From the NCBI GenBank assembly GCA_017798125.1, contig CP059070.1:930001-994000 (forward strand): 64,000 bases of DNA, read 5' to 3'. The notes under the pieces were generated by a model. The model searched no databases. It was given only the letters and a program-made list of their open reading frames with translations, and was not told the origin of the DNA. The number at the start of each line of letters is the position of its first letter. The stretch's first letter is position 1. Below, piece by piece: positions 48,517 to 54,167 of this stretch. The position numbers were made by a program, and so were the translations under genes. Source of the DNA: Cryomorphaceae bacterium. Its GTDB lineage: Bacteria; Bacteroidota; Bacteroidia; Flavobacteriales; ECT2AJA-044.

Positions 48517-49902
48517 ATGATGCGGAAACTTTTCACTTTACTCTTAAGCCTCTGCGCCTACGGCGCGATGGCCCAGTCTCCCGTTGTCGGCGATTGGCTC
48601 GGAAGTCTACAAACCCCCAATGGTTCTATCCGAATGGTGCTCCACGTGGTGGAGGCAGAAGGCGGCGGTATTTCCGTCACCATGGATTCGCCCGATCAAG
48701 GAGCCTATGGCCTGCAAACCGACACTGCTTTTTACTCCGAGGGAACGTTCGTCTTTAAAGTCGATGCTGCAGGCGTCAACTATCAAGCGGGTGTGGCCGA
48801 TGGTGAAATGCGTGGTACGTTCAAACAAGGAGCTTTTGAACTCGCCTTAGATTTTGAGAAGTCCAATGCGCCCATTGGTAAGGACAAACGTCCTCAGGAT
48901 CCAACCTTACCCTATGACTATGAGTCGGAAAACGTTCAGTTCCGAAACAAGAAGAACAAGATTGACCTAGCGGGAACTTTGACCTACCCCTATGGATCCG
49001 GTCCCTTCCCAACGGTAATCCTGATATCGGGTTCTGGTCCACAGGACCGCAACAGCGAGATTTTCAACCACCGCCCTTTCTGGGTCTGGAGCGATTTCCT
49101 CACCAGCAAGGGCTTTGCGGTCTTCCGTTACGACGAGCGCGGAGTAGGCAAGTCTGGTGGTAAGTTCGCCACGGCAACCTCACGCCATTTTGCGAATGAT
49201 GTTGAAGCGGCTATGGATTATCTCAAGTCCCGGGGAGATGTTGTGGACAAGGACGCCATCGGACTGATGGGCCACAGCGAAGGAGGTATCATTGCACCGA
49301 TGGTAGCCCAAGAGCGAAAAGACGTGGCCTTCATGGTCTTGTTGGCTGGACCAGCCATGCCAGGTCGCGATATTCTTTTGGATCAAAGTGCGCGCATATA
49401 TCGTCAGGCCGGAATGTCCACAGAAGACATCGAAGAAAACGAGAAGATGATGGGAGAGCTGTACGATCTCTTGGATGACGGAATGGAAGAAGAAGCGCTG
49501 CAGGAAGCCATGAAAGCGGTCATAGCTGGCTACGCAGAGGGAGAATCAGAAGAAGATATAGCTCAGGCTCAAGACGCCATTATGCGTGAAATAAAAAGTG
49601 CCTGGATGCGTGAGTTCATTCTTTACGATCCGCGTCCTTCTCTAGAGGCTGTGGAGGTACCCGTTTTGGCCCTTTTTGGAGAGAAAGATGTTCAAGTCTC
49701 TCCAGAGCTGAATAAACCGGCCTTGGAGGCAGCTTTAAAAAAGGCCCCGATTAAAGATTTCCAGATCATGGTCATGCCAGGTCAAAACCATCTTTTCCAA
49801 ACCTGTACCACCTGCGCCATCAGCGAATACGGGCAGCTCGATGAGACGGTGAATGAAGAGACCATGAAGCTGGTTATGAAGTGGTTGCGGAAGCACAGCT
49901 GA
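48517..49902 (+). CDS. Secreted alpha/beta hydrolase
   Basis: A 461-residue exported hydrolase. The signal peptide (about 1-20, ending AMAQ) contains a repeat copy. A lead domain of about 120 residues is followed by an alpha/beta hydrolase core with ISGSGPQDRN, the nucleophile elbow GLMGHSEGG (Ser at about 256), the catalytic Asp in LFGEKDVQVS, and His in MPGQNHLFQ. It resembles the serine aminopeptidase/acyl-peptidase-like esterases common in Bacteroidota. TACCTTAG lies 4 nt before the ATG. It follows paaY by 16 nt, but a link to phenylacetate is not implied. Confidence 0.88.
   Translation: MMRKLFTLLLSLCAYGAMAQSPVVGDWLGSLQTPNGSIRMVLHVVEAEGGGISVTMDSPDQGAYGLQTDTAFYSEGTFVFKVDAAGVNYQAGVADGEMRGTFKQGAFELALDFEKSNAPIGKDKRPQDPTLPYDYESENVQFRNKKNKIDLAGTLTYPYGSGPFPTVILISGSGPQDRNSEIFNHRPFWVWSDFLTSKGFAVFRYDERGVGKSGGKFATATSRHFANDVEAAMDYLKSRGDVVDKDAIGLMGHSEGGIIAPMVAQERKDVAFMVLLAGPAMPGRDILLDQSARIYRQAGMSTEDIEENEKMMGELYDLLDDGMEEEALQEAMKAVIAGYAEGESEEDIAQAQDAIMREIKSAWMREFILYDPRPSLEAVEVPVLALFGEKDVQVSPELNKPALEAALKKAPIKDFQIMVMPGQNHLFQTCTTCAISEYGQLDETVNEETMKLVMKWLRKHS
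48554..48570 (-). repeat. REP-like palindrome copy 13
   Basis: GCGCCTACGGCGCGATG: a perfect GCGCC/GGCGC stem around TAC with the GATG flank; the TTT flank is absent. It encodes CAYGAMA at the end of the signal peptide of the alpha/beta hydrolase. Confidence 0.68.
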
Positions 49903-49913
49903 TATTCTCGTAG

Positions 49914-50010
49914 CGAGAAAAAATACCGCAGCGAGAATTATTCTTGCATAGATAATTGCCTAAGTGCTTTAAATTCAGTAGTTTAACGTTTTGGCACTGT
50001 TTTGAACCAC
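49914..50010 (+). promoter_or_regulatory. Upstream control block of LruC gene 1 (shared with gene 2)
   Basis: The intergenic block carries GAGAAAAAATAC, CGAGAATTATTC and TTTTGGCACTGTTTTGA (49989-50005). Each element recurs in the same order before the second LruC gene (52072-52181). The conserved GGCAC box suggests a shared promoter or operator. It is not an exact sigma-54 site because the GG-to-G spacing is one base short. Confidence 0.6.
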
Positions 50011-50037
50011 CTAAGTGTAAATTTTACACCCCAAACC

Positions 50038-51981
50038 ATGAAAGCACTCAAATTATTTTTCTTCGCGGTACTGATTGTATCGGTAGGATGTAAAAAGAAC
50101 AACAACGACGATGACAACGAAGGCGGACTTGCAGCCTTTGACTACAACACCTCAACATCAACCATCGTAGAGATCGGTGCGCCTGATCATTTAGCGGGAT
50201 CTAGCTTTGGATTGTACACCGCGAATCCTGATAGTGGAGGGCGACTGTTGACGCGTGGAGTTTTAGACGATAACGCCCAATACAGCAATGAGCTCATTCT
50301 TCCAACCGCTTCGGAGTCTGTCTTCTTGAAGACCTGGTATATAGGATTGCCGGGAGATGTAGAAATCCCGATCGTCAATGGACGTGCTTCCGTGGAGCTT
50401 TTGCCAGAAACGGGGCCCGATACACCCTACATGGGTGACCCTCAGTTCATCCCGATTCCAAGAACCAAGAATTCTAATACGGTGATCGGGTATATGGGAA
50501 CCTACAATCAGCAAGGGGTGCCTGATTACTTAACCGTTGCCGATAACGTGGACGCGTCTCTTTTGAACGACGTGAACGCTGCGCTCCCGGAATACTATCC
50601 TGTTACAACATATAACGCGCAATACTTGGCAAGTGGTAATTCAACGGATATCCAACTTCAGGACTCTTCAGATGTATGGGTCACTTTTGTTGCGGAAGGC
50701 GCGGGGTACCGAAATGTGCTTGGTTACTATGTATATGATCAAAATAACCCGCCAACTTCGGCTTCCGGCATAGATAGTATTCATATTATTTTTCCCAATA
50801 CCAGCTTTGCGGGCTCCGGGGGAGGTTTGTATTCCGGAGACAAGGTATATCTCGGTTCCTTTGGCTCGGATAAGGCAATCGGCTGGGTCTTGTTCCAGAA
50901 TGCATGGAGAGGAAATACGCAGACCGTCAATTTCAACGCCACAAAATTTTATTCCAATCCGGACTTTAACCCGGAGCAGAATGCAAGCATCCGCCAGCAC
51001 CTCGTGCAGTTGTACCACACCCAAAGAGACTTGGTACTCATCGGATTTGAAGATATCCCAAGAAACTGGGGTAGCTGCGATAATGACTTCAACGATCTCA
51101 TTTTCTATGCCTCCTCGAATCCGATTACGGCCATCCCTACTATCAACATGCCGACTATTACAGGGAACACAAACAACGATTCCGATAACGATGGGGTAGA
51201 TAACAATGCGGATGAGTATCCAAACGATCCTACTCGTGCCTTTACGAGTTACTTCCCCAACGCCAATGACATGTGCAGCTATGCCTTCGAAGATCTATGG
51301 CCTTCAAAAGGGGACTATGACTTCAATGACTTGGTTGTGGATGCGCAGTACAAATACGTCTTGGACGCCTCTAATCAGATTGTGGATATTGAAATGGACT
51401 TCTATGTCAAGCACATCGGAGCAAGTTTCCACAATGGTTTCGGTGTTGAATTGCCTATTCCGATGGGCAATGTGTCCAACGTTACCGGCTACAACATCAC
51501 GGATAACTTGGTTACCCTGAACGGATCCGGATTAGAAGCGGGCCAGACCAATGCAGTCATTATCCCCTTTGATGATGCCTTCGACAATTTGGAGGACACC
51601 CTCCATATGGTGATCACCTTGAGTGGCACGTACAGTATGAGCTCTTGGAACCAATCAGGACTGAATCCTTTTATCTTCTCTAATGCGACTCGTGGAAGAG
51701 AGATTCACTTAAGCGGACGAGCTCCAACAGACTTGATGGACAATACATGGTTCGGCCAAAGCGCAGACGACAGTGATCCGGCAAATGGCCGATACTACAA
51801 GACCGCCGATCACGAGCCATGGGGTCTCGAAGTCAATAACAGTTTTCGTGTACCCGTAGAGAAGGTGCGAATAGAGAACGCATACTTGCGTTTTGACAAC
51901 TGGACCAATGCCGCAGGTTCTCAGTGGAAGGATTGGTACGAAGACAAGCAAGGGTATCGAAATAACGCCAATCTTCAATAA
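50038..51981 (+). CDS. LruC-domain surface lipoprotein, copy 1
   Basis: A 647-residue lipoprotein with the lipobox VSVGC followed by KKNNNDDDNE, an acidic stretch like the lipoprotein export signal for surface exposure. The central part has DUF4114-like DFNDLIFYAS, and after a calcium-binding-type segment SDNDGVDNNADEYPNDP the LruC domain follows with GDYDFNDLVV. The ATG at 50038 was chosen because MKALKLFFFAVLIVSVGC is a complete lipoprotein signal; the frame from 50002 starts inside the control block. The function of LruC proteins is unknown (the name comes from a Leptospira antigen). It is a tandem paralog of the gene at 52227. Confidence 0.85.
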   Translation: MKALKLFFFAVLIVSVGCKKNNNDDDNEGGLAAFDYNTSTSTIVEIGAPDHLAGSSFGLYTANPDSGGRLLTRGVLDDNAQYSNELILPTASESVFLKTWYIGLPGDVEIPIVNGRASVELLPETGPDTPYMGDPQFIPIPRTKNSNTVIGYMGTYNQQGVPDYLTVADNVDASLLNDVNAALPEYYPVTTYNAQYLASGNSTDIQLQDSSDVWVTFVAEGAGYRNVLGYYVYDQNNPPTSASGIDSIHIIFPNTSFAGSGGGLYSGDKVYLGSFGSDKAIGWVLFQNAWRGNTQTVNFNATKFYSNPDFNPEQNASIRQHLVQLYHTQRDLVLIGFEDIPRNWGSCDNDFNDLIFYASSNPITAIPTINMPTITGNTNNDSDNDGVDNNADEYPNDPTRAFTSYFPNANDMCSYAFEDLWPSKGDYDFNDLVVDAQYKYVLDASNQIVDIEMDFYVKHIGASFHNGFGVELPIPMGNVSNVTGYNITDNLVTLNGSGLEAGQTNAVIIPFDDAFDNLEDTLHMVITLSGTYSMSSWNQSGLNPFIFSNATRGREIHLSGRAPTDLMDNTWFGQSADDSDPANGRYYKTADHEPWGLEVNNSFRVPVEKVRIENAYLRFDNWTNAAGSQWKDWYEDKQGYRNNANLQ

Positions 51982-52017
51982 GCGAAGAGTGAGTTACCTT
52001 ATCCATATAAAGCCTGC

Positions 52018-52041
52018 AAAGCCTCGAGAAATCGGGGCTTT
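52018..52041 (+). terminator. Intrinsic terminator after LruC gene 1
   Basis: A ten-base-pair stem (AAAGCCTCGA against TCGGGGCTTT, one T-G pair) capped by a GAAA tetraloop, followed by GTTTGTGTTT. It separates the two LruC genes, so each has its own transcript. Confidence 0.75.
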
Positions 52042-52071
52042 GTTTGTGTTTAAACCGGCTTTTATCGTTTT

Positions 52072-52181
52072 CTAGAAAAAATACATAAACGAGAATAATT
52101 CCAGAAAAGAGAATATAAACATAGAATGAGAATTGTTAAAGCGTTGTAAATCAGCGCTTTAGTTTTTTGGCACCGTTTTGA
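52072..52181 (+). promoter_or_regulatory. Upstream control block of LruC gene 2
   Basis: CTAGAAAAAATAC, ACGAGAATAATTCC and TTTTGGCACCGTTTTGA (52165-52181) repeat the elements seen upstream of LruC gene 1 in the same order, showing that the duplication included the regulatory region. The GGCAC box is 45 nt before the start codon here and 32 nt in gene 1. Confidence 0.6.
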
Positions 52182-52226
52182 CAGTACACATGGCGCACTC
52201 TAACGAACAATATTAATCAGAGCGTC

Positions 52227-54167
52227 ATGAAAAACATCAGAGCCATTCTCTTCGCAGCCGCAATCCTCCTAGTAGGTTGTAAGAAAGATCTAGAAACTCA
52301 GGAGGTCTACACACCGGCTACGGGACACTTTAACTACGAAACGTCTTCAAGTGTAGAAGTAAATGTAGACGGACCCGCCCACTTGGCCGGTGCAGTATTC
52401 AGTTTGTATACAGCTCATCCAGACAGCGGAGGCCATTTCTTAGGAAACGGAAGCTTGAATGCTTCAGGTTCTTTCTCAGAAACCGTCATTCTTCCTACTT
52501 CCGCCAAAACGATCTATCTAGAGACAAGAACAATTGGCTTGCCCGGACAAGTAACTGTTGACGTGTTCCACGATCGTGCGGATGTCGACCTTCGTACACT
52601 GGGGCTGAGCAATCGAGCTATGGATGCAGCCAGTTTAATGGCTATTCCTCCACAAAAGAAAAACGGAAATACGGTGTACAGTTACATGGGTGCGTATAAC
52701 TATCATGGAGTACCCTCATACTTGTTGCCCCAGGGAGATGTCTTAGACGCTGCCTTTATTTCAGCGTGTAACGCATCACTTCCTGAGAACAACCCAGTTC
52801 CAACTGCCAATCCGCATTACTTGGCGACTGGAAACTCCACCGACTTGCGCATTGTTGACTCCGCCGATGTTTGGATTACGTTTGTCCACGAAGGTGCCGG
52901 ATACAAGAATAGCCTCGGTTATTATGTATATCCAACCAATAATCCGCCACAGACGGCGAATGATATTGACACGATTTTCCACATCTTTCCTAACGTGAGC
53001 TTTGCCGGCTCGGGAGGAGGATTGCACAGTGGAGACAAAGTATATCTAGGGGCTTTTGGTGCGGGATATTCTATTGGCTGGGTCATTTTTCAAAATGCAT
53101 GGAGGACTTTCAGTGGAGTGAATACGAGCAAACAAAAGTTTTACAGCAATCCAGACTTCAACCCGGAAAGCACTCCGGCAAAACGTCAGCACAATGTTCA
53201 ACTGTTTGATGCCCAACGTGACTTAGTATTGATTGGATTTGAAGACTTGCACCGCGATCAAGGATCGGATGACGACTTTAACGACGCCGTTTTCTATGTT
53301 ACTTCAAACCCCATTGAAGCCATCGAAACAGGAACCTTGCCTCCAGTTACTAATGGAGGAACAGACACCGATAACGACGGTGTGCCAGATTCGCAAGACG
53401 ACTATCCAAATGATCCAACGCGTGCGTTCAATAACTACATCCCCTTTGAAGATGGATACAGCAGCCTGGCTTTTGAGGACTTGTGGCCTTCTCAAGGAGA
53501 CTACGACTTCAATGACCTCGTCGTCCATGTCAACTACGAGGTAGTCACCAACGGATCAAACGAAATAGTCGATATCGAAGCGAAATACTACGTGGCTCAC
53601 ATTGGCGCCGGATACCACAATGGTTTTGGGGTACAAATGCCCGTAACACCTGCACAGGTGACTAGCGTAACAGGTGGAAACATCACAGACAATTTAGTGA
53701 CCATCGGACCTAACGGCTTGGAAGCTGGTCAATCAAAAGCGGTATTTATCCCCTTTGATGACGCGCATGACAACCGAAACGACACCATTGCGATGAGCAT
53801 TCAGTTTGCTTCTCCGGTGAACCGAAGCGGTTTCTTGAATGAAGGATTTAACCCCTTCATCTTTGTGAATGGAACGCGCGGGCGAGAAGTACACTTCTCC
53901 GGTGAGGAGCCTACAGACTTGATGGATGTGACCTTGTTCGGTCAAGCAGCAGACAACTCAGATCCAGCCAACGGTATATATTACATCACTGCTGATAAGA
54001 AGCCTTGGGGTTTGAACATCAGCCACGACTACCGCGTGCCAGTGGAAAAGCAACGTATCGAAAATGCGTACCTCAAGTTCAATGCTTGGGTAGCTAGCGA
54101 CGGTATGAATTTCAACGACTGGTACGAGAACAAACAAGGTTATCGAGACGCCACGAAGCTGCAGTAA
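52227..54167 (+). CDS. LruC-domain surface lipoprotein, copy 2
   Basis: A 646-residue paralog of the preceding gene. The lipobox is ILLVGC, followed by KKDLETQE. The same domain order holds: an N-terminal beta-sandwich-like part with PAHLAGAVFSLYTAHPDSGG, the DUF4114-like DFNDAVFYVT, a calcium-binding-type TDNDGVPDSQDDYPNDP, then the LruC domain with GDYDFNDLVV and a C-terminal FNDWYENKQGYRD that matches copy 1. The protein sequences have diverged considerably but every block aligns. Cell-surface role unknown. Confidence 0.85.
   Translation: MKNIRAILFAAAILLVGCKKDLETQEVYTPATGHFNYETSSSVEVNVDGPAHLAGAVFSLYTAHPDSGGHFLGNGSLNASGSFSETVILPTSAKTIYLETRTIGLPGQVTVDVFHDRADVDLRTLGLSNRAMDAASLMAIPPQKKNGNTVYSYMGAYNYHGVPSYLLPQGDVLDAAFISACNASLPENNPVPTANPHYLATGNSTDLRIVDSADVWITFVHEGAGYKNSLGYYVYPTNNPPQTANDIDTIFHIFPNVSFAGSGGGLHSGDKVYLGAFGAGYSIGWVIFQNAWRTFSGVNTSKQKFYSNPDFNPESTPAKRQHNVQLFDAQRDLVLIGFEDLHRDQGSDDDFNDAVFYVTSNPIEAIETGTLPPVTNGGTDTDNDGVPDSQDDYPNDPTRAFNNYIPFEDGYSSLAFEDLWPSQGDYDFNDLVVHVNYEVVTNGSNEIVDIEAKYYVAHIGAGYHNGFGVQMPVTPAQVTSVTGGNITDNLVTIGPNGLEAGQSKAVFIPFDDAHDNRNDTIAMSIQFASPVNRSGFLNEGFNPFIFVNGTRGREVHFSGEEPTDLMDVTLFGQAADNSDPANGIYYITADKKPWGLNISHDYRVPVEKQRIENAYLKFNAWVASDGMNFNDWYENKQGYRDATKLQ

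Follow-up and report, generated by a model that had tools for sequence, protein, structure and literature searches.

A lineage-specific tandem duplication has copied a LruC-domain lipoprotein gene together with its whole control region, giving two adjacent genes, A and B, in the 64,000-nucleotide stretch analysed here (the window; G000:C1:930001-994000, in a Flavobacteriales genome of one contig of 2,844,510 bp). We consider it probable that, beyond this duplication, RpoN (sigma-54) transcribes both copies from a shared TTTTGGCAC box under an NtrC-type activator at upstream palindromes, the activator tentatively being the product of gene L003. The duplication itself is ordinary. Sigma-54 control is better supported at the level of the LruC family, and is likely for A and B as judged from their sequences. 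The genes and hairpins concerned are listed below.

48517-49902: alpha/beta-hydrolase-like gene (named by eye), ending upstream of gene A
50038-51981, plus strand: gene A, LruC-domain lipoprotein (DUF4114 + DUF4842), 647 aa, ATG start
52016-52043, plus strand: GAAA-capped terminator hairpin between the genes, z -3.99, terminator-like in a second scan too
52227-54167, plus strand: gene B, LruC-domain lipoprotein (DUF4114 + DUF4842), 646 aa
54227-54251, plus strand: terminator-like hairpin 3' of gene B

The block-by-block alignment of the two proteins described in the sequence-only reading is borne out by BLASTP, which finds them 56% identical across 650 columns, 7 of the positions being gaps. 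DUF4114 and DUF4842 are found in both proteins, and TIGR04456 (LruC_dom) matches the pair with 217 and 234 bits, against a curated cut-off of 36. Each protein has a lipobox cysteine behind a signal peptide (SVGC and LVGC), and C18 of B is invariant in 40/40 aligned homologs. Function could not be assigned from fold: the predicted model of B is good (pLDDT 88.9), yet 3oqq (BACOVA_00967), which alone in the PDB matches at E <= 0.001, is an uncharacterised lipoprotein. We further note a second tandem LruC-domain pair with other N-termini in the same genome (L064 and L070; G000:C1:1837607-1839980), the first gene of which lies close behind the preceding gene.

A quick tree of 52 LruC proteins groups A and B as each other's closest relatives (SH-aLRT 97), and L076 comes next. 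Their upstream DNA is homologous over about 120 bp: local alignment of 49903-50037 (A) with 51982-52226 (B) scores 35 under strict and 34 under loose settings, against maxima of 30 and 27 over 1000 shuffles, and none of the 1000 dinucleotide shuffles aligns as well. The sister grouping and the homologous upstream DNA uphold the earlier proposal that the promoter was included in the duplication, and the GAAA-capped terminator proposed between the genes is found as the hairpin at 52016-52043. The observation as a whole, a duplicated lipoprotein pair with its upstream blocks, is confirmed. More than one LruC-like ORF is present in 11 of the 79 loci examined, and most tandem pairs are sisters in the tree, indicating that such duplication has occurred several times. 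In the pairs of L101, L136, L083 and L106 the sigma-54-like boxes of both copies exceed the control threshold; this is not so for the pairs of L090, L109 and L120. In genome G058, the LruC pair adjoins a GAF-type histidine kinase (named by eye), and the stretch read around that pair contains no NtrC-type activator.

The elements upstream of the two genes are as follows.

49905-49919: palindrome TTCTCGTAGCGAGAA, putative activator (UAS) site of gene A, UAS matrix score 9.8, 86 bp upstream of the box
49921-49939: imperfect second GAGAA half-site copy, 18 bp further, a putative site 68 bp upstream of box A
49989-50005, plus strand: TTTTGGCACTGTTTTGA, sigma-54-like -24/-12 box of gene A, one base short
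50015-50029: palindrome GTGTAAATTTTACAC, close to where transcription of gene A is expected to start, absent upstream of gene B
52099-52113: TTCCAGAAAAGAGAA, putative activator site of gene B, matrix score 10.9, 68 bp upstream of the box
52165-52181, plus strand: TTTTGGCACCGTTTTGA, sigma-54-like box of gene B, one base short, score 9.5

Three strings had been reported as shared by the two upstream regions in the same order. The order stands, as do CGAGAAT[T/A]ATTC and TTTTGGCAC[T/C]GTTTTGA, which are exact; the first string, GAGAAAAAATAC, occurs in A only, B reading TAGAAAAAATAC with 11 bases in common. The palindrome TTCTCGTAGCGAGAA begins 3 bp past the stop codon of the upstream hydrolase gene, and the region upstream of gene B holds more GAGAAT repeats, spaced about 18-19 bp. 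As predicted sites scored with a matrix trained on the same family, both UAS palindromes exceed the control 95% threshold of 9.2, and box B falls slightly under that of 10.0. The palindrome GTGTAAATTTTACAC between box A and gene A is possibly an extra operator.

The case for sigma-54 comes chiefly from the wider family. We fetched 80 loci from public genomes and used 79, without L084 in the table; the controls are 232 upstream regions taken from other genes of these loci. Loci with short upstreams were left out (fewer than 100 bases in the dyad scan, fewer than 200 in the control, matrix and cluster tests), and the near-identical L148 was dropped from the dyad scan and matrices but kept in the comparison of 76 with 232 upstreams. 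With no motif preset, the top dyad of 69,632 in 78 LruC upstreams is TGG-N8-TTG (21 observed against 2.2 expected), which has the spacing of the sigma-54 -24/-12 elements, and the palindrome TCC-N7-GGA ranks fourth. TGG-N8-TTG is found in 22/76 LruC against 6/232 control upstreams (p 3.6e-10) and TTCC-N7-GGAA in 12/76 against 1/232 (p 2.6e-7). These dyad and control counts make a novel box unrelated to sigma-54, one of the options raised earlier, unlikely.

Fitted matrices, trained on the same 75 LruC upstreams that they score, place the box over the control 95% threshold in 41/75 and the palindrome in 31/75, so that the sigma-54 box is not seen in about half of these upstreams. Both elements are over threshold in 19/75 LruC against 1/232 control upstreams under these same-set matrices, and their distances bunch at 66-79 bp. 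Among 27 further loci (three duplicates dropped, L256 and L265 left out, 14 loci taken from one earlier set), five have the box, six the palindrome and three both, at distances of 57, 67 and 69. With one member per 60%-identity cluster the box is found in 10/51 and the palindrome in 4/51, and with one per 50%-identity cluster in 5/32 (p 0.005) and 1/32 (p 0.23), respectively; the enrichment of the box thus survives clustering and that of the palindrome falls.

Within the window's own genome, the exact TTTTGGCACYGTTTTGA box occurs just twice in 2.84 Mb, both times at the A/B pair, and sites with up to three mismatches number 27 against 21 for a reversed control, indicating that exact copies are confined to the pair. 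The search for the box before other genes that the sequence-only reading had suggested therefore fails for the exact form, which we reject as a genome-wide regulatory element. It succeeds for a related form: the broader TTGGCAY-N4/5-TTG occurs at 44 sites, against 19 for the reversed control, and such boxes precede groES, dnaK and lon (named by eye from their N-termini) as well as both LruC genes. Twelve of the 44 sites lie outside any ORF of at least 60 aa, eleven of these with an ORF start within 220 bases. One of these sites, L189, is antisense to a longer gene. The box TTGGCACGGTCATTGA is found in identical form at L184, where it precedes dnaK, and at L164, where few ORFs follow.

The chief doubt concerns spacing. 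All 30 groES upstreams of the order have TGGCA[CT] with G at position 14, which makes a sigma-54 box readable in this order. Both window boxes have TGGCAC with the GG of the -24 element and read G13/A14, the G coming one base early relative to the groES boxes; the -12 G expected 12 bases after the first G of GG is absent from boxes A and B, where an A stands. The proposal that the GGCAC box is sigma-54-like is thus backed by the family-wide motifs and by the RpoN and activators of the genome, and weakened by boxes one base off in spacing, which may make the promoter weaker or mean that it is no longer used. The same shift is seen in L077 (Thermaurantimonas), with G13/T14. G14 is found in 13 of the 17 LruC boxes with TGGCAY (the near-identical L148 left out), and the window spacing, TGG-N7-TTG, is not enriched, at 4/76 LruC against 6/232 control upstreams (p 0.21).

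These shifted boxes are what would be expected if TTTTGGCAC were a former sigma-54 promoter that has lost its spacing, with another promoter, such as one for the main Bacteroidota sigma factor, now in use and the shared DNA inherited and partly active. The close relatives G021 (L048), G041 (L051) and G005 (L049), whose upstreams fall below the box threshold, also fit such a loss. Against it, the 17-bp box differs at a single position between the copies and is conserved better than any other stretch of their upstreams, compared with 56% identity of the proteins, and no -7 element (consensus TAnnTTTG) is found by eye at a fitting distance. We regard this explanation as a serious but clearly less likely one. 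It is improbable that the shared blocks are sites of an ordinary repressor or activator at a sigma-70-type promoter with an accidental likeness to sigma-54: the GAGAA repeats that recur roughly every 18 bp upstream of each gene could suit many regulators and exact box copies are limited to the pair, but the sigma-54 dyad is the top motif family-wide and activator genes adjoin several members.

Indeed, an NtrC-type activator gene lies beside LruC in six loci, directly upstream in L117, L124, L136 and L154 and divergent in L110 and L105. The four loci with the activator directly upstream carry TTCGTT-type palindromes instead; they form a recurring Bacteroidales cluster of activator followed by LruC, with TTCG-N4-CGAA-like palindromes in the gap, and a REC protein then follows LruC in L117, L124 and L154. 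The window's own genome has one RpoN and six strong full NtrC-type activators. One of these, L003 (G000:C1:2391774-2393123), is of REC-AAA-Fis type and is followed by HPt, REC and sugar-transferase-like genes (assigned by eye except for the AAA domain). In L095, a LruC gene with TTCCCGGTGTGGGAA has a different activator 1.2 kb downstream, which is closest to L003, and in G181 and G240 an L003-type activator and LruC genes share a contig, 7-11 kb apart. Of the 9 genomes that contain LruC at E <= 1e-80, 6 encode a full-length L003-type activator, compared with 49 of the 189 genomes lacking LruC at this cut-off (p 0.015). TTCC-N7-GGAA occurs within 300 bp upstream of the activator's own start in 10 of 30 L003 orthologs (that of this genome included), against 6 occurrences in 80.9 kb from other parts of these loci; L003 itself has no exact palindrome within this distance.

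Five of the 13 TTCYC-N5-GRGAA sites in the genome lie outside ORFs of at least 100 aa on either strand, three of them within 13 kb of the L003 gene and one at gene A. Genomes with an L003-type activator do not have more copies of TTCCC-N5-GGGAA (p 0.73), and as proof of an L003 regulon these genome-wide counts failed. L003, a REC-AAA-Fis protein encoded near sugar-transferase genes, is a candidate activator of the pair with moderate support. Two sites elsewhere in the genome are worth recording. At L218:4440-4600 on the minus strand (G000:C1:2378939-2379099), a TTCCCAATTTGAGAA palindrome is followed 75 bp downstream by TTTTGGCACAAAGCTTGAAT, oriented toward a stretch that contains no ORF, lies beside glycosyltransferase-like genes and, by eye, has a T-rich hairpin at its end; this site possibly drives a sigma-54-dependent small RNA. 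At L217:6280-6560 (G000:C1:2394279-2394560), the palindromes TTCCCATTTTGGGAA and TTCTCCTTTTGAGAA precede a gene judged by eye to be PorP/SprF-like, some 1.2 kb away from the L003 gene.

In the RpoN-dependent reading that we favor, a signal would reach an NtrC-type activator by phosphotransfer; the activator would bind the TTC..GAA palindromes about 70-90 bp upstream and contact a waiting sigma-54 polymerase, which would read each copy from its TTTTGGCAC box. Since both genes would be started by one activator, two divergent lipoproteins would answer to one signal, the duplication having placed them under one switch and left them free to diverge. More tentatively, if the activator is L003, with HPt, REC and sugar-transferase genes nearby, the LruC lipoproteins may belong to an envelope or exopolysaccharide program. 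A wider and more speculative scheme, which we put forward as a possibility that is rather less than even, is that sigma-54/phosphorelay switches in Bacteroidota have LruC lipoproteins among their outputs. One REC-AAA-Fis type with HPt, near exopolysaccharide-type genes, would read TTCC-N7-GGAA and control itself, LruC and possibly a small RNA; a second type, beside LruC in Bacteroidales, would read TTCG-N4-CGAA; and in the window's lineage a one-base-short promoter would have survived the duplication.

LruC/sigma-54 control was not found in print in the literature searched, and LruC does not occur in PMC12316311; as far as these searches show, the link is new. LruC/DUF4842 proteins are widespread surface lipoproteins, and a sigma-54 switch that is conserved and has its activator nearby would help to show at what times, and alongside which other products, they are made. 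The Bacteroidota sigma-54 regulon, scarcely mapped beyond heat-shock genes, would gain an envelope branch.

Three known systems invite comparison. As LruC/DUF4842 lipoproteins (TIGR04456, PF16130, PF13448), A and B exceed the curated cut-offs, with 3oqq the only solved relative found; they differ from the family in general in being two divergent copies in tandem. The likeness to systems with NtrC-type enhancer-binding proteins lies in the six such proteins encoded here and in the palindromes at a similar distance upstream of the promoter in many LruC genes. PMC12316311 reports that groES and grpE of Bacteroidota are under sigma-54 control; these heat-shock promoters likewise have a TTGGCAY box, as do groES, dnaK and lon of this genome. 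Compared with them, boxes A and B lack one base of the spacing from -24 to -12, and the target is a surface lipoprotein.
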